NCBI GenBank assembly: GCA_001910725.1
Contig: MJGA01000016.1
Coordinates: 434,001 to 498,000 of the forward strand
Reading direction: 5' to 3'
Source of the DNA: Phanerodontia chrysosporium
Taxonomy: Eukaryota > Basidiomycota > Agaricomycetes > Polyporales > Phanerochaetaceae
Length of the DNA stretch: 64,000 nt
The notes below the pieces were generated by a model that had not been told where the DNA came from, made no database searches, and was given only the letters and a program-made list of their open reading frames with translations. This document shows, piece by piece, positions 20,198-43,100 of this stretch (positions are counted from its first letter, which is position 1; every line of letters begins with the position of its first letter). Made by a program: the position numbers and the translations under genes.

Positions 20198-20539
20198 TTC
20201 CACGGGATGACGGCGACGCGTTTTGACGACCTTGTTCTGGTGACGACTAATTTATTGTGCTTGTGACGCTCATTTGCTGTATCTATATCATGTCAGGCTC
20301 CCTCGTGGGCATACTTAGCGACGGCTTTACGGACTTTGATTATGGTAGACTGTTTGATGACATTCGACAAGAAATGAGAGATGGAGACTACACAGAAGCG
20401 CTACGGTGAGGGCATCTCTCACATTATTCACTCACATTGAACCCTGGAACACAAAGCCAAGTAACATCGTGTATATATGTTCAAAGAGAAACCGTTTACA
20501 TAGACTAGTACTTGCGCTGGAGCGATATGGGATGTTTAA
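20198..20539 (+). other. Intergenic, flank of inverted-repeat element
   Basis: AT-richer 3' flank of the third membrane paralogue. It contains TATATCATG and GTATATATG stretches but no gene. TTAA at 20536-20539 directly abuts the left arm of the inverted-repeat element. Confidence 0.4.
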
Positions 20540-20659
20540 GACGCGTGCTAGTTTCCCCCGCGAGCGTCGAGGCTCGCAGGGTACTTATCCCGAGGACCAA
20601 GAAAGGGTCCGCGCCAGGACGGCTCCAAGTCTGCATGAGAGCCACCCTTCCCTCGGGGT

Positions 20660-21375
20660 AACGGCGCGCGAGGAGCTCGCTGCCGGGGCGGGAAGCTCGC
20701 CCAAGTCCGAGGAACTCAGACTTTGCCTACGAGAAACTCGTGGCGGGCACCTGAGGAACTCAGGTGTCAGGACGGGAAACTCGTCCTTCCTTGTCCGGGA
20801 AACTCAGACCAAGGTGCGCGAGGAACTCGCGACTTGTTTTGTGGCGGGAAACTCGCCTAGTCTGAGAAGCTCAGACCTCGCCTCGAGAAGCTCGCTGCGG
20901 GCACCGAGAAACTCGGGTGTCGGACGGGAAACTCGTCCTGATCCTCGTCTGAGAAACTCAGAACAAGGTGCGCGAGGAACTCGCGACTTTGAGGCGGGAA
21001 GCTCGCCTATCCTCGGCTGGGAAACCCTGCCAGAGGTGCGCGAGGAACTCGCGACTTTAGGTTTTGGGCGAGAAACTCGCCACGCGGATGTTGGGACGGG
21101 AAACTCATCCTTCCTTGTCCGAGGAACTCGGACCAAGGCGCGCGAGGAACTCGCGACTTTGAGGCAGGAAGCTCGCCTATCCTCGGCTGGGAAACCCTGC
21201 CAGAGGTGCGCAAGGAACTCGCGACTTTAGGTTTTGGGCGAGAAACTCGCCCTTCCTTGTCCGAGAAGCTCAGGCCAAGGCGCGCGAGGAACTCGCGACT
21301 TTGAGGCGGGAAACTCGCCTATCCTCGGCTGGGAAACCCGGCCAGAGGCGCGCGAGGAACTCGCGACTTTGGGGT
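20660..21375 (+). repeat. Left hairpin array, about 31 short palindromic units
   Basis: Tandem short palindromes spaced about 20-25 nt. The commonest unit is CGCGAGGAACTCGCG; others are GGCGGGAAACTCGCC, GGCGAGAAACTCGCC, CACCTGAGGAACTCAGGTG, GTCCGAGGAACTCGGAC and GTCTGAGAAGCTCAGAC. Each has a central GRG-RAR-CTC, that is a 6-8-bp stem around a purine trinucleotide (GAA, AAA, AAG or GAG), with flanking stem bases that vary between units but covary across the loop. I counted about 31 units by eye. Confidence 0.85.
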
Positions 21376-21444
21376 GGTGGTCGAGGTCGGCGACGACGAC
21401 GACGACTGCAACAACTCCTCGCTGTCACCGTCGTCGTTTGTTGC

Positions 21445-21489
21445 CTGTGAAATGTTCAGTATGGCGCTGCAGTGCTGAATAGTACTCAC
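21445..21489 (-). other. 45-nt intron-like segment, left arm
   Basis: On the minus strand this begins GTGAGTACTATTC and ends ACATTTCACAG, with a CATACTGAAC branch-point-like site. It is 45 nt long, exactly like its counterpart in the right arm, and lies about 110 nt after an outward-facing TATA box. Confidence 0.6.
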
Positions 21490-21590
21490 GAACTCTGTTG
21501 TAAGTGTTTGTTATATGAGGCTTGATTTGAATGTGCTGAGGGAGGCTGCGGGAGCTTGAGGCCTGAGACTCAACGGCAGGACCCCCACGG

Positions 21591-21598
21591 TATTTATA
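21591..21598 (-). promoter_or_regulatory. Outward-facing TATA box, left arm
   Basis: TATAAATA on the minus strand inside GGTATAAATACC, facing the left hairpin array. The right arm has the same box in mirror position (22499-22506). Confidence 0.6.
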
Positions 21599-21723
21599 CC
21601 TTTTGTTTGTTTGTCGCAGTCAACAACGACGCGTCCTTGTTTGCCAGTATTTGCCGACGCGTTGTTTGCTCGATAGCCACGAAGCAGCCGGCAGCATCGG
21701 ACACCGGATTCGATCCTCGGACT

Positions 21724-22372
21724 GCTCGGAGCTCGATCTACTACCTAGGGCGCAGAAGAGAACAGCCTCGGAGAGCGGCCGACAGACAATGAATCGGCGG
21801 CATTGGCTTCGCTCACGGCACCTGACTTCTCGCGAGTGAGCTCGACGTTTTTCTCTCGATATTCCTGGGGTGTACTATTGACTTTGAATACTGAGACCAG
21901 ATATTCAGCAGAGCCTAGTAAATTGGAGTGCACAAGAATATAGAGCGACATGAAGGACGTCGTCGTTGCGGCCGCTGCTGCAGGAGGAGCGAGTCGGAGT
22001 TTGATGCCACGCAAGCAAACTTGGACAACTGCCTATTTGGGACGTCAAAGCGAAGCGCTCGAAATGCCTGCAAGAAAATCAACCTGCTCTCTACCAGCCA
22101 TTCTTTCCATGCTTGTCATACAAGAGACAAGCCTGGCCCTTCATTGTATGTCCCTACTCTTTATATGGTTAACTAGACAGGCTAGTACTGGCTAGCTCGA
22201 ACTGTTCACTTACGGTCGAGTTGTAGGCATCTCTGGGCGCCGCCGCTCAGTGGCTTACGCCTGGCCGTTTTGGCTAGCTCGGTGAGCTTCGACGTCCCCG
22301 AAGCCGTGGCAGATGTCGGGTCACCTTCTCTGCGCCGATTGTGACCCAGGTGGCGTCTGATGCAGCCACTGC
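21724..22372. other. Non-repeated core of the inverted-repeat element
   Basis: About 650 bases between the two arms. Short open frames exist (21745-22014 minus; 22206-22490 minus) but none resembles a transposase, reverse transcriptase or any other known protein. Two short CTAG-rich patches occur near 22168-22200. Confidence 0.45.
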
Positions 22373-22498
22373 CAGTCCGAGGATCGAGTCCGGCATCCGA
22401 CACTGCCGGCTCCTTCGCAGGCGTCGTGCAAACAACGCGTCGACAAACATGGGCAAACACAGGCGCGTCCTTGTTGATTGCGACAAACAATGGAAAGG

Positions 22499-22506
22499 TA
22501 TAAATA
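22499..22506 (+). promoter_or_regulatory. Outward-facing TATA box, right arm
   Basis: TATAAATA in GGTATAAATACC on the plus strand. It is followed 102 nt later by a GTGAGT splice donor and then by the right hairpin array, so transcription would run outward. Confidence 0.6.
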
Positions 22507-22600
22507 CCCTATGAATCCTGCCATCGAGTCTCAGACCTCAAGCCCTCAAAGCCTCACAGCCTACCGAGTCTCTTACAACAGAGTCTTACAGCCAAGCCTG

Positions 22601-22645
22601 GTGAGTACTATTAAATGCTGCAGCACCATACTAAACATTTCACAG
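22601..22645 (+). other. 45-nt intron-like segment, right arm
   Basis: Begins GTGAGTACTATTAAATG and ends ACATTTCACAG, with TACTAAAC as branch-point-like site. Length and both splice sites equal those of the left-arm copy, although the internal bases differ at several positions. Confidence 0.6.
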
Positions 22646-22709
22646 CGACGGACAACGACGGTGACAGCGAGGAGTTGTTGCAGTCATCGTCGTCACCGAC
22701 ATCGACCAC

Positions 22710-23345
22710 CACCCCAAAGTCGCGAGTTCCTCGCGCACCTCTGGCCGGGTTTCCCAGCCGAGGATAGGCGAGTTTCCCGCCTTAAAGTCGCGAGCTCCTC
22801 GCGCACCTTGATCTGAGCTTCTCGGACAAGGCTAAGGACGAGTTTCCCGTCCTACAAGTCGCGAGTTCCTCGCGCGCCTCTGGCCGGGTTTCCTAGCCGA
22901 GGAAAGGCGAGCTTCCCGCCTCAAAGTCGCGAGCTCCTCGCGCGCCTTGGTCCGAGTTCGTCGGACAAGGAAGGACGAGTTTCCCGTCCCAACACCGTGT
23001 GGCGAGTTTCCCGCCCAGAACTAAAGTCGCGAGTTCCTCGCGCGCCTTGGTCTGAGCTTCTCGGACAAGGAAGGGCGAGTTTCTCGCCCAAAAACCTAAA
23101 GTCGCGAGTTCCTCGCGCACCTCTGGCCGAGTTTCTCGGCCGAGGACAGGCGAGTTTCCCGCCTCAAAGTCGCGAGTTCCTCGCGCACCTTGGTCTGAGT
23201 TTCCCGGACAAGGAAGGACGAGTTTCCCGTCCTGACACCTGAGTTCCTCGGGTGCCCGCCACGAGTTTCTCGTAGGCAAAGTCTGAGTTCCTCGGACTTG
23301 GGCGAGTTTCCCGCCCCGGCAGCGAGCTCCTCGCGCGCCGTTACC
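22710..23345 (-). repeat. Right hairpin array, about 27 short palindromic units
   Basis: Inverted counterpart of the left array. Units seen on the plus strand include GCGAGTTCCTCGC, GGCGAGTTTCCCGCC, GACGAGTTTCCCGTC, CCGAGTTTCTCGG and CTGAGTTCCTCGG. I counted about 27 by eye, fewer than in the left arm, so units have been gained or lost since the arms diverged, while the outermost units keep the same order. Confidence 0.85.
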
Positions 23346-23466
23346 CCGAGGGAAGGGCGGCTCTCATGCACACTTGGAGCCGTCCTGGCGCGGACCCTTT
23401 CTTGGTCCTCGGGATAAGTACCCTGCAAGCCTTGACGCTCGCGGGGGAAACTAGCACGCGCCTTAA

Positions 23467-24401
23467 ATCACTTTCCGTCTTCTTGGCCCCACCGTTGTTG
23501 CATAGATACCTTGTCTGCTGTACTGTAGCTACATAACATTGAACGCAATGCGACTGGGAACTATTTGGCAGGAGCGAAAGAAATGCTTCAGGTGAGCCGA
23601 AGACGGCGTAGGCATGCGAACAATGAAACCGAAGTACAGGCGCTGGGGTGAGCGCAATGCGCGATGTCTGAGGCGGAGTGCGCCACGAGGGCTTTGCGAG
23701 AAATGCCTCCGTCGACTGCGACTGACCCGGAACTGCACATGGAGCGGCGGCCGGAGTGTATCGCCTAACATCAGGCTTGAATCAAGCCAGTATTCATTGC
23801 AATCTTTGAATGCTCGCTATGGGGCTTGTGGAAAAGATGTAACAAAGAAGCTCTGTGTCGGGTCGCTGAGGGGAGCAAACAAAGCCAAACAAGCGCTAGC
23901 GCGTGCATCAGAGCGCGACGTCCACGGTGCTCGGGAGACGCCATGCTCTTCGATGCGCAGCGCTGTCCGAGAGCAAGCGTCGTCGACAGCGGACGGGGCA
24001 GCCTCGGGCGGTGCGTCGCTGGGGTTATGTAGCATCGCGCGCACGCTCGGCGAGGGTTTCCGGCCGTCTCTGCGAAGACGAGCCCGTTTGGGCAGCGTGC
24101 ATCGCAGAACACCCACTGTTCGGACGCGTAGTCAGCATGCACACCTAACACCGCGCTGGGGCTGCTCTTTCGACGTGCTCCTGCCTCAAACCGGACAGGA
24201 CGCTGCCATCTCGCAGGATGTCCGTGCACAGGCGCTGTCTCGCTCCCCCGCCCTTTATCTGCCCCCAGGTGCGTCTGCCCGACGGCCCCCACCACGTCCG
24301 CCTATTTCTCACCTACCACCACCTCCGTCGTCTCCAGACCCGGCCCCAGCCATGTCCATGCCTGGTGCGCTCCCCGCCGCGGACGACGCCCACGCCCCGC
24401 C
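23467..24401 (+). other. Intergenic, upstream of ABCG transporter
   Basis: About 935 bases between the inverted-repeat element and the ABC transporter start. A 327-codon open frame crosses it and overlaps the transporter exon in another frame; it has no conserved features. The last 250 bases are C-rich with pyrimidine tracts, as in a fungal promoter and leader. Confidence 0.45.
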
Positions 24402-31938: not shown

Positions 31939-34900
31939 TTAGTCCATCCATTCGCCGCCGTGGGCGAGTTGAGAGAATACACCACGCTTCTCCACAAGCT
32001 CGTGGAACGTGCCTTGCTCAACGACCGCTCCCTCGTGGACGACGAGGATGCGGTCGCACATCTGCATGACTGGCAGTTTGTGCGTGATCATGAGTGTAGT
32101 GCGGCCGACCTTGGCACGGCGGATCGTCTCCAGGACGGCGAGCTGGTTCGCGGGGTCGAGCGCCGACGTGCACTCGTCGAGGATGAGGACCGTGCTCGGG
32201 CGCACGAGCGCGCGCGCGATCTGCAAGCGCTGCGCCTGCCCACCCGAGATCAGCGACGCGTTTTCGCCGACGACCGTCTCGTAGCCTTTCGGCAGCGAGA
32301 GAATGAAGTCATGAACGTTCGCGGCGCGTGCGGCTGCGTGAATTTGCTGCATGGAGACACCCTGCGTGCCGTACGCGATGTTCTCCGCGATGGTCGCGTC
32401 GAAGAGGTTAGGCTGCTGGCTGACAACGGCGACGTGGTCGCGAAGGTGGCGAACGTCGGTGTGGTGGATCGGGTGGTGGCCGATGCTGATCGAGCCCATG
32501 TTTGGTTCGTAGAGACGTTGAAGGAGAGAGGCGATAGTCGACTTGCCAGAGCCGGAGGAGCCAACGATAGCGACACATTCGCCGTCGGCAATGGAGAATG
32601 AGAGGTCTTTCAAGACAGGAACGTCCGAGCGTTCTGGGTAAGAGAAAGAGACATTGGAGAAGGAGACATCGCCAGCGACTGGAGGACGGAGTGAGCCTTC
32701 CGACTCGTCCGTCCGCTTCTGGAGCTTGAGGAGCGCGTTGAAGTCCTGCGTGGCCTGCACGGATTTTGCGATGCGCTGAGCTGTGGGGTTCGTTAGTGCG
32801 AGCGTCGACTGAGATAGTGCGAGAAACGTACTGAAAGACATCAGCTGAGAGCCGATGGTAACTGTGAAGACGACGAGGTTGAGGACCTGGACCATGCGCA
32901 GGTAGCCGTAGGTGCCATTGGCAACGAGGACGGCGCCGACATAGAAGAGGACAGCCTCGGAAAGGTAGATGAGGGCGCTTGCGACACCATGCGTACAGCC
33001 CTCGACGAAGGCCCCTCGCACACCAGTTGTAAGAGCATGGTCAGCGGACCTTTCGAACTTCTCCTGGAACACGTTCTCAAAGCCCATGGCACGAATGCCG
33101 CGCACATTCGAAATCGCCTGCAAGGTGATGCGTGAGCATTTGACCACAAATAAAACCAGGGTGTTACGCACGTCGTAGTAGCCCCTGGACACCTCTTCTC
33201 TTGCCCGCCGGTTGCGGTACTCGCACTTTGCGACAAGGTTCGTCTGGATCGCCATCGTGACGCCAAAAACGGGGGCGAGCGCGAAGCCGACGAGGGTGAG
33301 CTGCCAGCCCTGGACGAGGGCCCACACGAGGCCGACGCCGAGCATCGCAGACACGACGAGCGCCTGCGCGAAGACGGTCGCGATGAGCGAGCGTGAGTCA
33401 TCGCCGTCTTTGATGAGAATCTGCACGAGGCGCGCAGGGCCGTGCGCGCTGCGGTCGAACCACCGCTTGTCTTGCGCGAGCACGAGGCCGATGCATGTCT
33501 TGCGGAGCCGGTTAACCCAGTCCATGGCTGTGTACTCCATCACGAAGTACTTGAGCCCGATGAGCAGCCCGTCGCCCGCCGCGATCGCCAGCGAGAGCCC
33601 GCCGAAGACGTTCACCGCTGACACGTCCGTCGCGCCGATGGAGACCTCGTACTGCAGCCGCGAGAGCACGAAAGAGAAGACGGGCGTCATCGCGCCGCTC
33701 GCCATGCTGAGCAGCATCCCGAGGATGAGCAGCGGCTTGAGCGGGATGGTTGGCCAGACGTCACGCATCAAGGCGAAGAAAGACGGTTGGGCGGGGATAG
33801 GCTCTTCGGCACGTGTCTCGCTGTTCTCGACCTTGACCTCGGTCAACTCGATGAGCTTGCCCTGGTCCCACTTGATGCGCTCGCGCTTCTGGACCTGCGC
33901 CTTGGCGTTCAAGCTGGAGATGCTGCGCGACGGGTGAAGGACGCGGTGCTCCAATAGCTTCTTCTCGTCGTCCTCGCCATCCTCGATGACGGTGGCAGAG
34001 AGGAACGACGAGTGGGTGTAGGTGGGTGACGTCGGAGTGAACTGCAGACTATACCGGCGGCTCATCGTGCGTGCGAGGGGTGGCGAGGTGAGCGAAGGAA
34101 TGTCAATATGCAGGGACTTAGGGCGGCTCGAGGCGGGGGAGACAGGAGTGGCAGGCTCCTCGCTGAAAGACTCCTGAGGTACGAAGCGGCTAATGCGGTG
34201 AGAATTCCGGTTGGGAGCAGGGGCGACAGCTGCAGATGGAGCAGTGACCGATGTCTTTGTCAAATCGGCGACGACGTCGAACATCCAATTGCTCATCGTC
34301 AGGGGTCTGTAGATGCTTGAACGCTTCAAGTCTGTCGCGGTGACACCAGCAGCCTCGAGATCCTCTTCGATATCGGCATCCGCCTGCTCGAGAATAGCCT
34401 CGAGCTGGACCCCATCCTTGGCCAAGTCGTCGTCTGTGCGCTCCTGAAAACCGACCGCGAGCATGCGAGAGAACTCTTCGCCAGCAGTCTCCAAATCGCT
34501 ACGGAAGCCCTGTTCGACAACTTCACCGTTCTTCAGGACGTACACGAAGTCTTCCTCGGTGATTTGAGAGAGATCGTGTGTGATGACAATGGTGGTCTTG
34601 TTCTGGCGCCACTTCTTGATCGCCTCGAAGACCAGGACGCGGGACGTCGGGTCGAGTGCAGAGGTTGCTTCGTCTGAATCATCAATTTTAGTGCGATGCG
34701 ATCGGAGATCAGACGTAGAACACACCGAGGATAAGAACTGTAGGATTGCGGAGAAGGGCTCGCGCAATAGCAAGACGCTGCTTCTGACCGCCAGAGAGGT
34801 TGGCTCCGCCGTTACCGAGCTTAGTATCGTATCCATTCGGAAGGTCGCTAATGAACTGGTGCATGAGCGCCGCCCTGCACACGGCCTCGACCTCCGCGCG

Positions 34901-36597
34901 GGTGACGTCCTCGGGGCGGCGCTTGCTCGCGGGGCTCGCGAGGCCCATGGCGACGTTCTCGTGTACGGTCATGTCGAAGAGAATGCACGTCTGCGACACG
35001 CCTGCGACCTGCTCACGGGACCATGCGAGGTCGAGGTGCGCGAGGTCGTGCTCGTCGAGTTTAAGCATGCCCTGGCCCGCGTGCAGGTGGTACATGCGCA
35101 GGAGGAGCTGCCCGACGGTGGTCTTTCCCGAGCCGGATGCGCCAACGATGAACGTTAGTTCCTGCGCCGGAAGGAAGATGCTCACGTCCCGCAGCACCGG
35201 CACATCAGGCCGCGACGGGTACGCGAAGGTCACGTCGCACAGCTCGAGCCCGCCCTTGCACGTCGCCGGGATGATTTTGCGCAGCGTGCTCGTGTGCCGC
35301 GAGGGCTTGAGCGGGGTGTACAGAGTCGAGGCCGAGTGTCCAACCGTGGGGTCCGCGGTCGATTGCGCGAGCGTGACTAGCGAGGCCATGGCAAACTTGC
35401 CTTTGGCAATGACGATGAGTTGGGGGATGCACATTTGCAGGTTGCTTGTTGCGATAAGGCACGCCCAGAACACGGCCATGACGTCTCCAGGGCTGATCGT
35501 GCCAGAGCGGACGAGCTTTGCACCGAACCAGAAGCCCTGCACGAACATGGCCATCATCGCAAAGTGAGAGAGGGTTGCGGTGCAGCCCCAAACGGTGATG
35601 CATGCATTGGCGGATGACTGAAGCTTATCCAGGATCAGGGCCAAGTTCCGCTCCTCGTATGACTGCGCATTGAACGCTTTGACCGTAGCGATAGCTGCAA
35701 CCGCACGATCGACCAGGGTCGCTGCTGTTGCTGTTTGTGACCGTTCTGCGCCGAGGTGCGGTGCAACGAGGTTCTGGGATATTGTCTGAATGACGGTGAG
35801 AACCGGTACCGCGGAGAGGATGACAAGAGTCAAAGCCCATGAACGCGAGAAGCCAAGGGCAAGGCACACGACGGTTGTGGTGAGGTACTGGATAAACATT
35901 CCGCATGCGAGAGACGTCGCTGTCCGGACCTCGTCTGTCTCCCTGAGAGAAGTTGAGTACCAGCTCAGAGAAGAAGGCTCATGAACATACCTTGTGAACT
36001 TGGCCATGAGGCCGCCCGCACCAAGACTGTCGTCTGTGTCCTTGCCCGTCTGCGTGTCAAACCAGACGAGTTCTTTGCGCGTGACGGCGTTATACACGCG
36101 CTTACGAACCGCGAGGAGATTGCGCTCTCCGGTCCATATCCATAGACACGAAGTGATGCTGCTGAGTGCCAGCGCACCGAGTGCGAGACCGAGGAGTTCA
36201 AGGCGGTGACACCGATGTCGTGTCTGAGCGTGTTCTTGTCGTCTTGTGTAGGATTCGACAGAGGAAAGCGTGCGAATGCGTCAAAGACATTGCCGACGAC
36301 CAATGTCATGAACGGAGCAACAGCTCCCGAGGCCATAGCCGCTGCGATCGCGGGGCATACGAGGAAGTAGAGGTCATGTCGGGTGAGAAAGGAGAAGAGG
36401 AGTTTGAGCGACGGTGTAGGTGGTTTGGGCTGCGAGTGGAGGGTCTGGAGAGAGTCGTGGCGGAGAAGGGCAGCTTCGTGGTGGATGTCGCGGGTGTGTC
36501 GGGCGAGGTGTCGACGGTGTAGTCCGTCGAAGGACGGCCCATGGTGGGAGTTGGGGTCAGAGAGAGAGGTGCTTTGCCCTCGTCGAGGGCCCGCCAT
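31939..36597 (-). CDS. Ste6-like ABCB exporter, one-base frameshift near N-terminus
   Basis: Full-size ABCB transporter (TMD1-NBD1-TMD2-NBD2, about 1,490 residues) most like fungal a-factor exporters of the Ste6 type, which export farnesylated mating pheromone; that substrate is inferred. It starts MAGPRRGQSTSLSDPN at 36597. NBD1: Walker A GASGSGKTTVGQ, signature LSGGQKQRLAIARAL, Walker B LILDEATSALD with an intron inside the Asp codon (34684-34733). NBD2: GSSGSGKSTIASLLQ, SQQPNLFDATIAENI, LSGGQAQRLQIARALVR and LILDECTSALDP; the SGGQAQRLQ and DECTSALD variants are typical of Ste6-like proteins. Between DIGVTALN and LLGLALGALALSSIT the frame changes by one base at 36197-36202 (TTGAA where TTGGAA would restore it). 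Everything else is intact. The whole gene is enclosed by an inverted repeat. Confidence 0.88.
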
Positions 36598-37119: not shown

Positions 37120-40100
37120 TCAACCTGCGCGCTCAAGGAGGACGCGGTCGATCGCAGCGTTGATGGCTGCTTTGCGACTCGACAAGTCCATGCCGAAGTG
37201 CTCCTCCAGCTGACGCCGGATTTCGCGCTTGGTCACAGTTGTTAAGTCGGCGTCCTGGAGGATGTGCTGAACGGCGCGGTCGATCTCGGCATCGGAAGGT
37301 GATCCTGGTGCAAGGTCGATGTCCTCCGGACTATGTGACGTCGGTATTTGAACGTCGAGATACGATGTGGCGGGTCGTGAGGGTACCGGCTGGTGCAACA
37401 TACCCGGCATGAGGCCCGTGGACATGGGAGTGTTGCGTCCAGACTGGTATCCGGGTGGTGGATACATCATACCGGCCTGAGATGGCGATGGCGAGTAGGC
37501 CCGTGACATCGCCGGCTCGTAATACGTCTCGCGACCGTACATCGAAGCGGTTTGCGATTCTGCGTAGCCGTCGTTCTGGAACTTGGTAGGCGGCACCCAC
37601 GAGCCAATGCTGTGGTTCGACTCCTTGTCCCACAACTCGTTTTCCTGTAATTCTATGTCAACGAATGCACGATATGCTGCAGCAAAAACCACGTACGTAA
37701 TCATTCCAAGACTTGAGAGGAATCGACCTCGGATCGAACTTGCCCTCGTCCTACATTGAACGTTAGTATTTCGCAGCGCTGCGAGTTGACGAAAAGCCGA
37801 CTTACGTGAACCACCATCTTCTTTCCAGATTCTCCCAAGACAATACGAGTCTGACCCCAGGAGAAGTCATCCATGCGCCAGAAGGAGTACAGCGGCAGGA
37901 AGAACGAGAACGCAGGGATGGCGATGATGTAGAACACCATCCAGCCAACCATGTCCCACTTGCGGCGCATGATGAACACGAGAGCCTGCAAACCATAGAC
38001 GGCAGCCAACATGATGATCGACCACGTCGGAATGGTCCTGTGTTCACCAGCAACGAGGTAGATCAGGTAGACGATCTGCAGCGAGACCATGAGAATTGCA
38101 AGAGACGTGAAAAACCCTAGTACTCACGTATGCAACAGTGACCGGCTGAATGAGCGTGGAAATCAGATCGATCATGACGACGAAGCGCATCGAGAAGCAG
38201 CAGAAACCGCAAAGTTGGTCCAGGAACACCAGTTCACCCAAGTTGTGGACCGTCGAGTTGATCCAACGCCGACGCTGAGAGAGCAGGACCTTCCAATCGT
38301 CGGGAGCGACGGTGTAGGCGTGAGCATCCCTGACGAACTGCGTCTTGAAGTTCGAGAAGTGCTTCAGGAGCAAGGTCGTCAGGTAACGATCTTCACCAAG
38401 GTGCAGCAGGTTCTTCATGTGCAGCGTATCCACACGGTTCTCCGAGTAGTCCTGTATGAGCTGATTCGAGATGAGCAGCGGCTTGTGCGTGTCGGGCGTC
38501 CTCAAGCGGTAAAGCGTGAAACAACCAGGAAGACAGGTGACGGAACCGAATAGAGACTCGAACGCCTTCGCCATGTGGTGAGAGATGAAGTACTCGTAAA
38601 CCTGCATCATGGTGATGATCGACTGCTTCGCGTTGGCCAGTTCGGTTTCACCACAGACACCGAGGAGCTTCTTATCGTGTATCATCCTGCAAAGCCCATT
38701 AATGAGTTGTCTTCCGCAGAGAAGTAGAGCACGTACGCAGAGACGAGGCGGTTCAGAGACAGAGGCGCAACCGTAGTATCGGCGTCGACCATGAACAAGT
38801 ACTCGTAGAAGGTCGGGTTCACACCGATGACGTTCTTGATCTGGTGGTAAATCTCCAACTCCAGCGGGTTCATGGGGCTGTTGAAGTGAACCTGAAGGTT
38901 TCGTGAGCGCTGGCCATCCAATCGTAAGATTGGGAAGCGTACCTTGTTCAAGAAGTGCATGAGCAACATCTGCGAGTCACGTTTACCACGGTTACCAGGT
39001 CTCGACTTCTCGCCAGGCCTGCCACACTTGACGACTACGATGTACGGCACGACGTGACCTTGAGTCTCGTATAGTCCGGAGAAGACCTTGCCCATGTTGT
39101 GTTGCTTCGCGCCCTCGCCGAGAGACAGGAACGACAAGGGCTCAGCGTCGACGTTGGGGTTAGCACCGAGGACGTCCAGGACAATGCGCGGCGTAGGCTG
39201 GTCGTTACCGGAACCGACGACCATACCGTCGCAAATGATGAACAGAAGCTTGCGCTTGTCGTCGTACTTGGTCTGGGCGAGCGAGTCGATCGTGCGGCGG
39301 AGCGATGCATGACCTTCGGTATAACAAGGGACCTGACAGATGACGAACTTGTCGTGGTCTTCCGGAGCACGAGCAGAGCCAAAGTTGATGGAGGCGATGA
39401 ACTTGAAGCCGATGACGCTGACCATCATGACCGACAGGGCAAGGAGGATGTACTGCGAGAATAGACACTGTGGAGAGTTACGGCTGTCGACCTTGCCGAT
39501 GAGGAAGAGGTTGCGCAGACACGTCCTCTGCCAGTTCAGAACGTTTTCCGGAAGGTTGAGGTTATCAATCTTCTTTGTGACGTCCTGACCTGCATTGTAC
39601 TGGAAGACGTCCAGGATGCTCTGGTGCATAAAGTGCGGGTCGATGCCAGATGGGGGCTGCTCGCCCTTCGGTGCAGCGACAGCCGGGCCGTTGACAACAT
39701 ACGAGGTGAGGTCGTAGATTAAGCCACGGTAGACAGCAACAATGCGCCTCTGGTTCGCCATGTTTTTCAGCCCCTTGGAGTCAATGCCGACGAAACCGAC
39801 GCGGTTATTCCAGCGCATCAGGGTCATACTCTCGAAGTACCAGTCAGGGCGAGGATCGGACGTCCAGGCGCGGAAGTCGTGGTACTGAGCGTTCGGGTCT
39901 GTGTTGTTGCTGGAGTCCAGGACGACATAGGGGCTGACCGAACCAGTAACACCATTGCAGAGAGCGCTGACCTGCACAGGGAATAGGTTGTCTGCAGCGA
40001 CACCACCATACTTGAGGATCGACTTCTCCGGAATGATGTTAGGTTGGTGCGTCGCAGCGATCTGCGTCAGATCGAAGACTTCGCCACGAATCGAGGTGTA

Positions 40101-43100
40101 GACGTTGTTCGGGCTGTTCTGGAACGAGTGCGATTGGAGTTCGCTCGTGCTGAAGACGTGTTCCGTGGGGCAGATAAGGGGACCAATGACCGCGATGACG
40201 AAGACAGCGCAGGCACACATGAACCAAATGAGCATGTTTAGTGCGAGCTTTTCACGCCATGCCTGCTGAATGTCGGGTCGCTTCATTCGACCGATGTGGA
40301 CGAGCACCGGAGTGGGGATCCACCAAGTAAGGATCCAGCAAAGCATGACCCATCGTCGCCGAGCAGAGCTCTCCTTGAGGATCTCCACGGTCTCTCCTTC
40401 CTGGATCTCGCCGGCAATCACTTCTTTGTCCGCCAGACCGCCCTTGTCCGCGTTCTGGAACATATTTCGAGACGGTGCGTACGACTCCGTGCCAAAGTTG
40501 GACTGTGACTCGTCGTCCCGATGACTTGTGAGAGCGCTGCGTACGTCGTACTCGTCCATAGACTTATGGTCCTCGTAGTCATCGTAGCCGTCACCACGGT
40601 GGAATGGAGATGCGTTCGAGACGAGTGGCAGTTGCTGACTTGACTGGCCGAAGGGATCGTTGTAGCCGCCCTCGTACGGACCTTCCTGACCAGGGGTGCT
40701 ATATGGGGCGTATGGGTCGCCGAGTCCCCGCGGGTCAAGACCAGCCTCAGCCTCAGCTTCACGGATCCTGTTGCGTTTCTGTTCCTCCGTATCCTTTGCT
40801 CGGAGGTCGTCCTCGAGCCGGTGGAAAGCAGCATGCGAAAGGAATACCTGTACAAATATCAGCCACGATTCATGACGACACTTCCATTAACCTTACCATG
40901 GTCATGCCGAGCACGATGTCCTTCTCCTCCAAGCCAAGCGCAGTGCGGGTCTGCTCGACCTGTTCCCTCGGCTCGCCCTCTTGGATCCCAACCTGATGGA
41001 GAGTGTCCCGGTAGCGTTCCACAAATTCTTGCGGCGTCATTGCCACCTCGAACACGTTCACGCAACGGCGCGCAACCTCCGCGAGACCAAGGCTGCGGAC
41101 CTGGCCTTTCACCGAGCGGCCCTCGAGTTGATTGGGCAGTTGCGAGTCATTCGGGTTGATGCAGAACACATACCACGCCTGCGCCTCCTCCAACGTCTCG
41201 AAAAGCATGTCGAGCGCCGCGCGGAATTGACCAGCGATGCAGGGCGCCCCTCCAGGGGCTTCCTCCTCCTCCCTCTCGTCGATATCGTTTTCTTTCAGGG
41301 TCGGCATCCGCTTGATCGTGTTCTTGCGGCGGGTCGAGGGCGCGCGCATGGGCTTCACCGGCTGCTGAGCAGCAATGATGGTCTCTTCGTTCTTCGGGTG
41401 GACCTGGGTCGCAACCGCCTTAGACGTGAAAAGACCACGGACGAAGGGGTTGATCGAGCCTGAGCCATCAGAAGCAGGTGTATCGGTAGTGCTAGTGCCA
41501 CGAAGAAGCTGAACGAAGTCAGGGCTAAGAGTGTCCTGGTTCTTCTCGAGGAAGCCCTCCGCAGAGTAGGTGACTGGTCCTGTGAAATGGTTGACAGTGA
41601 AGGTGGGGAAGCCAGACCTATCCGCAGATCCGACCTTGAACGACGAGTGATTGCCCCAACGTTTGGAAAAGGCCTCAACCATGGTGTGGTTGGTCTTCCT
41701 CGGCATCCGGCGCGCCTGGTCATCCATGATGTGAATGAGACCGCCAGGGCGGTGTTGCAGAAGGCGAATGCATTCCGAGTTGTCGAAGTACGGAACCTGA
41801 GGCACGAACCTCGCGATGCCCTCGGCGTTGTACTCGCTGACATGACTCTCGAAAAGTCGCTTTTGAATGAAGTTCTGCAGCCGCTCGTTGGCGAAGTTGA
41901 CGCAGAACTGATCGAGGCCATTCGGACGGCTGGTCAGGTTCTGGGGACCGGGGAAGTCCAGCAGAGCGATGAAGCTGGTGAAATCGTCCTTGTGGAGGCG
42001 CTGGTTGATGTGCTCGTTCAGCCAGGTGAAGAGGAGCGAGTAGAGCGTCACAGCAAGCTCGTCTCGGTTATCTGCCGCACCGTCGGGATCCAGGAAGACC
42101 GTGCAAAGCTCCTTCTTCATCAGCCTCGTCCGGTAGGTCAACGCGGTCTCCAAGGCCGCAGGCTGTACACCCAAGAACTCCGCAACAATCTCGAGTACGT
42201 CCATGTTCCGGACCACAGCCGCATCTTCATTACGGTGACGGTCGATAGTGAATTCGAGGTTGCCCAAGTGCAGGATAGCAGCGATCAGCTGACATGTCTG
42301 AGCGACGTGACGTTTGGAGAAGCCAACGTTCTTCAGAGCCATCTTTAGCTGATCGAAGCGTATAGCATCCTCGTCGCGGCCCTGGTTCTGCCGCCCCGGA
42401 ATTGCTCGCTGAGCGAGATACCGGTATGTTGCCTTCTCGTTCAAGTGCATGTGCTGCCGCTCCTCCGGTGATGCACCGGCCATAAGGTAATAAAAGATGT
42501 GGAAGTTGCGTTCGCCGGAGGGAACTGAGGCCACGCGGGCACGTTCCAGGTAATAATCGATGGTTTTGACACCACATAGGCGACCACGCTCCGTGAACTG
42601 CAGCTCGGTGTACTTGCCAAACCGTGACGCATTGGCGTTGAAGAGCGTGCGCGCGCTACCAAACGACTCCAGGACGAATTCGGCTGCAGGCAGCTGGTGT
42701 GCGAGCTTCGAGCCCTTCTTCCCGGGGTTGCTAACACTCAGATCCAGCAGAGTCTTGATAGCAAGGCGGCGGTTCTCCGACTTTCCACTGCCCGTCTCTC
42801 CGCTGAAACATCGATGAGCGAGAGAATGACATAAGGGGATGGAAACGTAGCAGACCTTAGGAGGATGCATTGATCCTGAGCTGTGCGACGCATGTGGTAG
42901 TAGGCATTGTTTGCGAGCTGAAAGATGTGTGGAGGGAGAGGAACTTTGGAGGGGGTCGTGTCGCGGTACTCCGCGGCGTACTTCTGGAGGACAGAATCTG
43001 AATTACTGGGAACATATTTGTGTGGGTTTACAGCAACAAGACCGGAAGTGCCAATGTTGGTGTAGATAGTGTCGGCCATGAAGCGTTCGCGAATACATGA

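Follow-up and report, generated by a model that had tools for sequence, protein, structure and literature searches.

Introduction

Ribozymes of the hepatitis delta virus (HDV) type have a helix P1.1, and HDV-like ribozymes occur in retroelements; retrozymes are non-coding genomic units that carry self-cleaving ribozymes. Here we describe an inverted-repeat element at positions 20540-23462 of a 64,000-nt stretch of DNA from Phanerodontia chrysosporium, referred to below as the window (GCA_001910725.1, contig MJGA01000016.1, forward strand; C54:434001-498000 within the 39.0-Mb, 145-contig genome). We consider the element to be a pair of divergent, spliced, probably non-coding RNA genes, the transcripts of which would cleave themselves just 3' of an array of mini-hairpins by means of a terminal HDV-like ribozyme, and assign this reading a probability of roughly 0.7.

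The closest described relatives of the terminal module are the 230 fungal HDV-ribozyme variants found in 26 species (PMC5640933). According to the text of that paper, these variants are characterized by C-G pairing at the cleavage site, by a P4 with a loop E and by one extra nucleotide between P2 and P3, and two of them were shown to cleave as two-piece constructs. The gene associations of fungal HDV-like ribozymes are called 'widely variable' there, and the section on the variants assigns them no role; by its text, the survey in PMC8216456 did not screen Basidiomycota. Processing of RNA 3' ends by the spliceosome has been reported for some fungal telomerase RNAs (Box et al. 2008, as cited in PMC10035886 and PMC12506658).

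The 3' module

Both arms of the element terminate, on the outward strand, in a module of about 130 nt. Its last helix ends exactly at positions 20540 and 23462, the limits set for the element in a preliminary description that was made from the sequence alone and from which the module was absent; the module is what the ends of the element are. The 3' module is a covarying nested pseudoknot of helices P1 to P4, with covariation in P2 and P4 and with P1 paired in nearly all copies. The three-way core is supported by 16 copies aligned without structure: the number of double-changed cells was 31, as compared with 10.2 in shuffled alignments (0 of 500 reached the observed number) and 1-5 in slid controls, whereas in an enlarged set of 36 distinct rows, which includes weak and cut ones and was fitted to a model, it was 102 vs 34.3 shuffled and 7-19 in slid controls (the G between P2 and P3 being counted as paired in both counts). 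The model built from the 16 copies yielded 38 matches in 22 sources, the weakest of which (E 2) was spurious.

Immediately 3' of the P3 hairpin, the sequence forms 6-8 bp with a segment lying 4-44 nt ahead of P2; this holds for 31 of 32 copies, with the decayed-looking L016 as the exception, and this P1 pairing was found in 3/32 reversed, 3/32 reverse-complemented and 15.8% of letter-shuffled sequences. (Note that the test used 32 of the 38 model matches; four duplicates, one match with a short upstream sequence and the spurious one, L025:494, were dropped.) P1 occurs in 13 sequence versions, and L059 has one base fewer than L060 in each P1 strand. Read in transcript sense, G.U wobbles outnumber A.C by 27 to 5 in alignment A1 and by 47 to 7 in alignment A3, which places the module RNA on the outward strand.

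In the right module (forward strand), the 5' strand of P1 occupies 23345-23351 and is fully paired with 23407-23413, with cleavage predicted just before 23345 or at most 2 nt later. A hairpin designated P0 fills the connector between P1 and P2 (23354-23386; constrained fold), followed by the core at 23382-23467, consisting of P2, P3, the 3' strand of P1, loop E, P4, the 3' strand of P2 (ending at 23462) and a tail. In the left module (reverse strand), the 5' strand of P1 was located by its pairing at 20651-20657, with predicted cleavage at its upstream edge, P0 at 20616-20648 (constrained fold), and the core with its tail at 20535-20620, the last base of P2 being 20540. The right and left cores score 100.8 bits (E 5e-22) and 102.6 bits, respectively, against model R1, of which both are training sequences. 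A P0 hairpin of varying sequence precedes the core in many of 21 copies subjected to constrained folding.

Likeness to the fungal variants was judged from the text description in PMC5640933. On this basis, the module shares with them the nested pseudoknot order P1-P2-P3-P1'-P4-P2', the C-G first pair (28/28 copies with a seven-bp P1, assuming a P1 of that length) and, by sequence motif, a loop-E-like AGUA/GAA in P4 (34/38 rows). The extra base of the variants between P2 and P3, which is mostly C, is possibly matched by a G in the module, if this G is unpaired. A short P3, with a loop of 7 nt in most copies, is a further likeness; the module differs from the variants in the P0 hairpin that many copies have in the P1/P2 connector, and in its position at the 3' end of multi-copy RNA genes. 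In topology, first pair and loop E, the module closely resembles a self-cleaving HDV-like ribozyme of the fungal variant type, a kind of ribozyme that is already known. The J4/2 position presumably corresponds to the catalytic C of a C-N-R-A motif and reads C-Y-A-A in 26/32 copies, C-Y-A-G in 4/32 and neither in 2/32. Self-cleavage just upstream of P1, which would leave the array RNA with a cyclic-phosphate end, appears probable for the family as a whole.

Proposed gene organization of the inverted pair

The inverted-repeat character of the element, as given in the preliminary description, was borne out by self-alignment, in which the arms 20535-20835 and 23167-23467 are 98% complementary across 301 nt and much of the remaining arm length is covered by other pairs among the 25 listed. 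A search of the genome with one arm, as proposed in that description, recovered a second inverted pair at L017 4584-7016 (C13:358585-361016) and a half copy at L015 3563-5041 (C13), in which the similarity starts at the inner edge of the left promoter block. Because the half copy retains the central spacer together with a single unit, a divergent gene pair is the best description of the inverted form.

The five halves at these three loci, designated class 1, have the same order from the centre outward: promoter block, TATA box, exon, intron-like stretch, spacer, array and 3' module. The promoter blocks end in GTATAAATACC, the exons measure 68-99 nt, and the intron-like stretch is exactly 45 nt long in 5/5 units, beginning with GTGAGTACT, containing a branch-like TAAAC or TGAAC and ending in ACAG. 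In the right unit of the window (forward strand), the promoter block is located at 22398-22508 with the TATA box GTATAAATACC at 22498-22508, the predicted exon 1 lies between the TATA box and the intron at 22509-22600, and the intron-like stretch (GTGAGT...CTAAAC...ACAG), the splicing of which is predicted, at 22601-22645. Comparison of the units places the promoter block of the left unit (reverse strand) at 21589-21699, its TATA box at 21589-21599, the predicted exon 1 at 21490-21588 and the predicted 45-nt intron-like stretch at 21445-21489. The two promoters are separated by a central spacer (21700-22397; no strand assigned), delimited by alignment, the coding potential of which was judged from the list of open reading frames only. 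It contains a short open frame at 21922-22176 (ESEFDATQANLD); a similar stretch, apparently frame-shifted farther on, was seen by eye in L017 and L015.

Among six unit pairs, identity is 81-95% in the promoter, 78-100% in the intron and 86-96% in the module, but 37-99% in the poorly conserved exon 1 and 39-80% in the array, where lengths differ. Outside the units it is 39-85% in the 150 nt upstream of the promoter block and 32-55% in the 40 nt past the module tail. In 19 promoters from four classes of module-bearing units (described below), which are related copies and thus non-independent, several words exceed the expectation derived from their density in the window: RYAAACA (30 occurrences vs 1.4 expected), ACGCGT (17 vs 1.4), CAGCCTC (12 vs 1.2) and GTTGA/TCAAC (21 vs 6.6). 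We take the first two to be similar to forkhead and cell-cycle boxes. Ahead of the TATA box, RYAAACA was seen in classes 1-3, ACGCGT in classes 1 and 4, and CAGCCTC in classes 2 and 3. Overall, the units are likely to be transcribed outward and spliced.

The hairpin arrays

The array of the right unit (22715-23340, forward strand) contains 26 cores and that of the left unit (20662-21371, reverse strand) 29, as determined from repeat, palindrome and core counts; the roughly 30 mini-hairpins per arm of the preliminary description are thus confirmed. Palindromes with perfect stems of 5 bp or more around a 3-nt centre occur 15 times in the left arm and 11 times in the right one, as compared with means of 1.5 and 1.3 (maxima 6 and 5) in 200 dinucleotide shuffles. 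The palindromes with a 3-nt centre are hence real, with the correction that these 3 nt form the middle of a 9-nt core that hardly varies, reading mostly GAG-YTY-CYC in transcript sense. The looser core pattern G-R-G-Y-B-B-B-Y-C (transcript sense) matches 29 times in the left array, 26 times in the right one and 109 times across the five arrays known in the genome. The cores are mostly spaced 22-25 nt apart, with a typical distance of about 23 nt (30 and 27 cores if slightly longer stretches are taken).

The two sides of the stems change together, as had been suspected: Watson-Crick pairing holds for 184 of the 265 flank pairs counted in 53 distinct units, whereas 2000 shuffles gave a mean of 106 and a maximum of 133. 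On either strand, each window array also outperforms its 40 shuffles in folding (z -7.2 to -8.2). For the four of the five arrays that were folded, z ranged from -7.2 to -8.3 when the transcript strand was used and from -5.3 to -8.2 with the opposite one; the controls were the central spacer (z -2.4 and -1.5) and flanking sequence (+2.0 and +1.6). Pairing is kept in the array. Whether it is kept at the level of RNA or of DNA is less clear than for the 3' module. Since the middle core pair is A.C in 31 of the 109 units, a 7-nt loop closed by a G-C pair is an equally good description of the hairpin.

Copies and classes in the genome

The outer 90 or so bases alone were found at further places in the genome. 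In total, about 39 module places are located on 6 of the 145 contigs (C13, C44, C54, C55, C80 and C135), namely the 29 places matched, with 3 mismatches at most, by a pattern of 28 letters (its reversed form matched none), eight on C55, C13:301.7k and C80:615.3k. Several of these places are pattern matches only (e.g., C44:116.9k and 128.8k; C80:705.7k, 2188k and 2206k), and C44:200.7k matches P2-P3 only. Ten matches to GGCGCRGACCN{4,9}GGTC outside the six contigs (on C1, C58, C67 and others) were taken as chance because the reversed control yields 6. A loose module pattern had 10 matches in viral contigs, all of which lack the rest of the module by eye; a tighter pattern had 0 in viral and 0 in bacterial and archaeal contigs. 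Neighbouring copies apparently alternate in orientation (by eye; not used as evidence).

The module follows differing RNA bodies. Class 2 (L018-L021, C55) has a TATAAGTA promoter and two tandem modules, the upstream one being recognized with E 4e-9 to 3e-7; in L019 (4857-5128) the P1 starts are 271 nt apart, so that double cleavage, if it occurs, would free an RNA of about 271 nt, the ends of which a ligase could seal to make it circular. Folding of the class 2 bodies favours the transcript strand over the other (L020 z -3.2 vs +1.1; L018 -3.9 vs +0.5). A tRNA gene was noticed at L021 5551-5637, about 0.5 kb past a class 2 module. Class 3 (L022, L023, L024, L051) has bodies of about 0.4-1.1 kb with mixed results for the transcript and the other strand (L023R -2.6/-0.8, L022 -3.4/-4.1, L051 +0.3/0.0). 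BTB proteins were suspected beside class 3 but had no support in Pfam. Class 4 (L046-L048, L059, L060) has an intron-like stretch and repeats of ATGTCCACACCCCCC, and its bodies are likewise mixed (L046 -2.8/-2.4, L060 +1.5/+0.6).

Among the copies on C135 (L067-L069, L025), those in L067 and L025 have short open frames upstream of the module. Such frames, short and repeated (LISLAEAQR.., EGFEM), were seen ahead of modules at L067 438-910 and 2440-2860 and in L025. The one such frame tested had no Pfam match. These frames may represent a possible small-protein family with ribozyme-bearing 3' regions. Many of the roughly 39 module copies are located at the 3' ends of promoter/intron units, which suggests that the job of the module is to make the 3' ends of structured RNAs.

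Evaluation of the evidence and alternative explanations

Several observations weigh against the interpretation as ribozyme-terminated RNA genes. The module has no HDV match in Rfam. The G between P2 and P3 is present in 32/32 copies and could pair with the first P1' base (G-C in 35/35 rows). P1.1 is possible only if P1 is shortened by 2 bp, the bases after the 7-bp P1 being AUA, and the copies with C-Y-A-G comprise both window ribozymes (C-U-A-G), L017L and L025; C-U-A-G possibly weakens both window ribozymes. Because of C-U-A-G and the uncertain P1.1, the activity of the window copies is less certain than their fold, and self-cleavage by these two copies is less likely than for the family. 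Nine whole modules folded without the pseudoknot gave z -0.7 to -3.4, with the opposite strand folding better in 4 of 9. The strand argument, clear for the module, is not clear for the array: the arrays reach lower energies on the opposite strand, the middle core pair is G.U in 0 units of the five arrays as against the A.C count given above, and wobbles at all five flank positions of the 53 distinct units number only 24 G.U vs 13 A.C.

Of the three options raised in the preliminary description, namely a structured non-coding RNA array, a protein-binding array and a foldback element, the first is the best supported, because promoter block, intron-like stretch and covarying 3' module share the outward strand in both arms. 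The second, that the arms are DNA-level protein-binding arrays with dimer sites every 23 bp or so, in or beside a ribozyme-ended gene, is unlikely, even though it is the strongest competitor and conceivable for the hairpins themselves. It would account for the nearly constant 9-bp core with its spacing of about 23 nt, for the frequent A.C core pair (31/109) and for palindromes that fold on both strands; however, DNA sites should keep their stem bases, and here only the pairing is kept (184 vs 106), with 28 G.U vs 8 A.C on the transcript strand at the first three flank pairs of all 109 units, which are related and non-independent.

Somewhat less probable still is a non-autonomous retroelement or retrozyme-like unit, from which the ribozyme would release, and perhaps circularise, an RNA. 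Besides the presence of HDV-like ribozymes in retroelements, the tandem modules of class 2 on C55, which would free a small RNA from between the two P1 starts of L019, fit such a unit, and the element is like a retrozyme in being a non-coding, ribozyme-carrying genomic unit, two ribozymes standing in tandem in class 2. It differs from retrozymes in ribozyme type, in its promoter-bearing DNA copies and in the single ribozyme of each class 1 unit: a search of 20400-23600 with the full model gave strong scores for the two end modules only, the next hits (E 0.04) being within the arrays. The paralogues share sequence upstream of the TATA box and were therefore copied as DNA, and the copies are clustered.

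A foldback or miniature inverted-repeat transposable element (MITE)-like DNA transposon, in which the long inverted repeats carry transposase-binding subterminal repeats, is disfavoured and regarded as improbable. Long inverted arms with internal short repeats are typical of such elements; in the present case the outer 301 nt of the arms agree at 98%, the genome has one half copy besides two inverted copies, and TTAA is present at both ends of the window copy. This TTAA lies within the variable module tail, however, which reads CTTAA, CTAAA, CTGAA or CTGAC in other copies, and the ends of the element are those of the last helix of a covarying RNA module. By eye, the target-site duplication such an element should have was not found, TTAA alone being common to both ends of the window copy and nothing at L017; the list of open reading frames has no long frame inside (these frames were not searched for families), and none of the ten proteins examined near seven copies matched a transposase (no genome-wide transposase search was made). 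Unlike foldback elements, the arms look like transcription units with conserved promoter and intron, one copy is a half copy, and the copies found are limited to 6/145 contigs, where genes matching O-FucT, WD40, NACHT, GT8, GT2 and NAGLU adjoin other copies. Candidates for an autonomous long copy (the L023 ends, 5 kb apart, and C55 ends, 12 and 28 kb apart) have host-type genes beside their ends and were dropped.

Equally improbable is that the module lies in a terminal spliceosomal intron and that the spliceosome, not a ribozyme, sets the 3' end. A donor-like word GTNNGT is found 2-10 nt before P1 in 15/15 listed copies of the class 2 terminal module, classes 3 and 4 and L033 (L018-L021, L022, L023, L024, L033, L046-L048, L051, L059, L060), and in class 4 CTGAC or CTCAC/TTGAC and then AG follow just after the module. 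Such a word near the RNA 3' end in some classes recalls the fungal telomerase RNAs cited above, as far as these are described in the citing papers, but the present case is a multi-copy family with a ribozyme-like fold. GTNNGT is absent from class 1 (5/5), from C135 (5/5), from the class 2 upstream modules and from several single copies, the module looks exonic in L067 and L025 (by eye), and the nested pseudoknot is left unexplained. Finally, protein-coding arrays are unlikely: the longest outward frames in the list of open reading frames have about 140 codons, but with units of, for example, 68, 71 and 100 nt, lengths that are not multiples of 3, such frames would hardly be maintained.

Proposed mode of action and neighbourhood

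Under the interpretation as divergent ribozyme-terminated RNA genes, we infer that each gene would be transcribed outward from the central promoter region, presumably by RNA polymerase II from its TATA box, and that the predicted 45-nt intron would be removed from each transcript. The resulting RNA would consist mostly of a row of 26-29 mini-hairpins, and the terminal HDV-like ribozyme of the fungal variant type would cut just upstream of its own P1, giving the array RNA a defined, non-polyadenylated 3' end with a 2',3'-cyclic phosphate. The array might then present repeated docking sites to a protein recognizing the constant loop, with the stems free to drift as long as pairing holds; this docking row for a loop-binding protein is speculation that we hold with less than even confidence. 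If true, the array RNA would form a naturally occurring polymer of docking hairpins, with a use similar to that of engineered hairpin tags.

Tentatively, the family may represent a new class of eukaryotic genes: multi-copy, promoter-driven, spliced non-coding RNAs with interchangeable structured bodies, among them a 26-29-hairpin polymer, and an HDV-like ribozyme instead of poly(A), possibly including tandem-ribozyme members that release small circularisable RNAs. An HDV-like ribozyme as the end module of a clustered RNA-gene family that includes a hairpin polymer was not found in literature searches that covered open-access papers and few subscription ones.

The best matches of a chitin synthase in the window reach 70% identity, and those from named sources include Boletus, Moniliophthora, Marasmius, Postia and Grifola, as expected of a probable agaricomycete host. 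In the neighbourhood of the element, 8-20 kb to its right, a pair of genes is located at window positions 31939-36280 and 38682-43002, the first listed being ABC transporter-like (by eye) and the other a chitin synthase (by sequence matches) with a myosin-like part (by eye).

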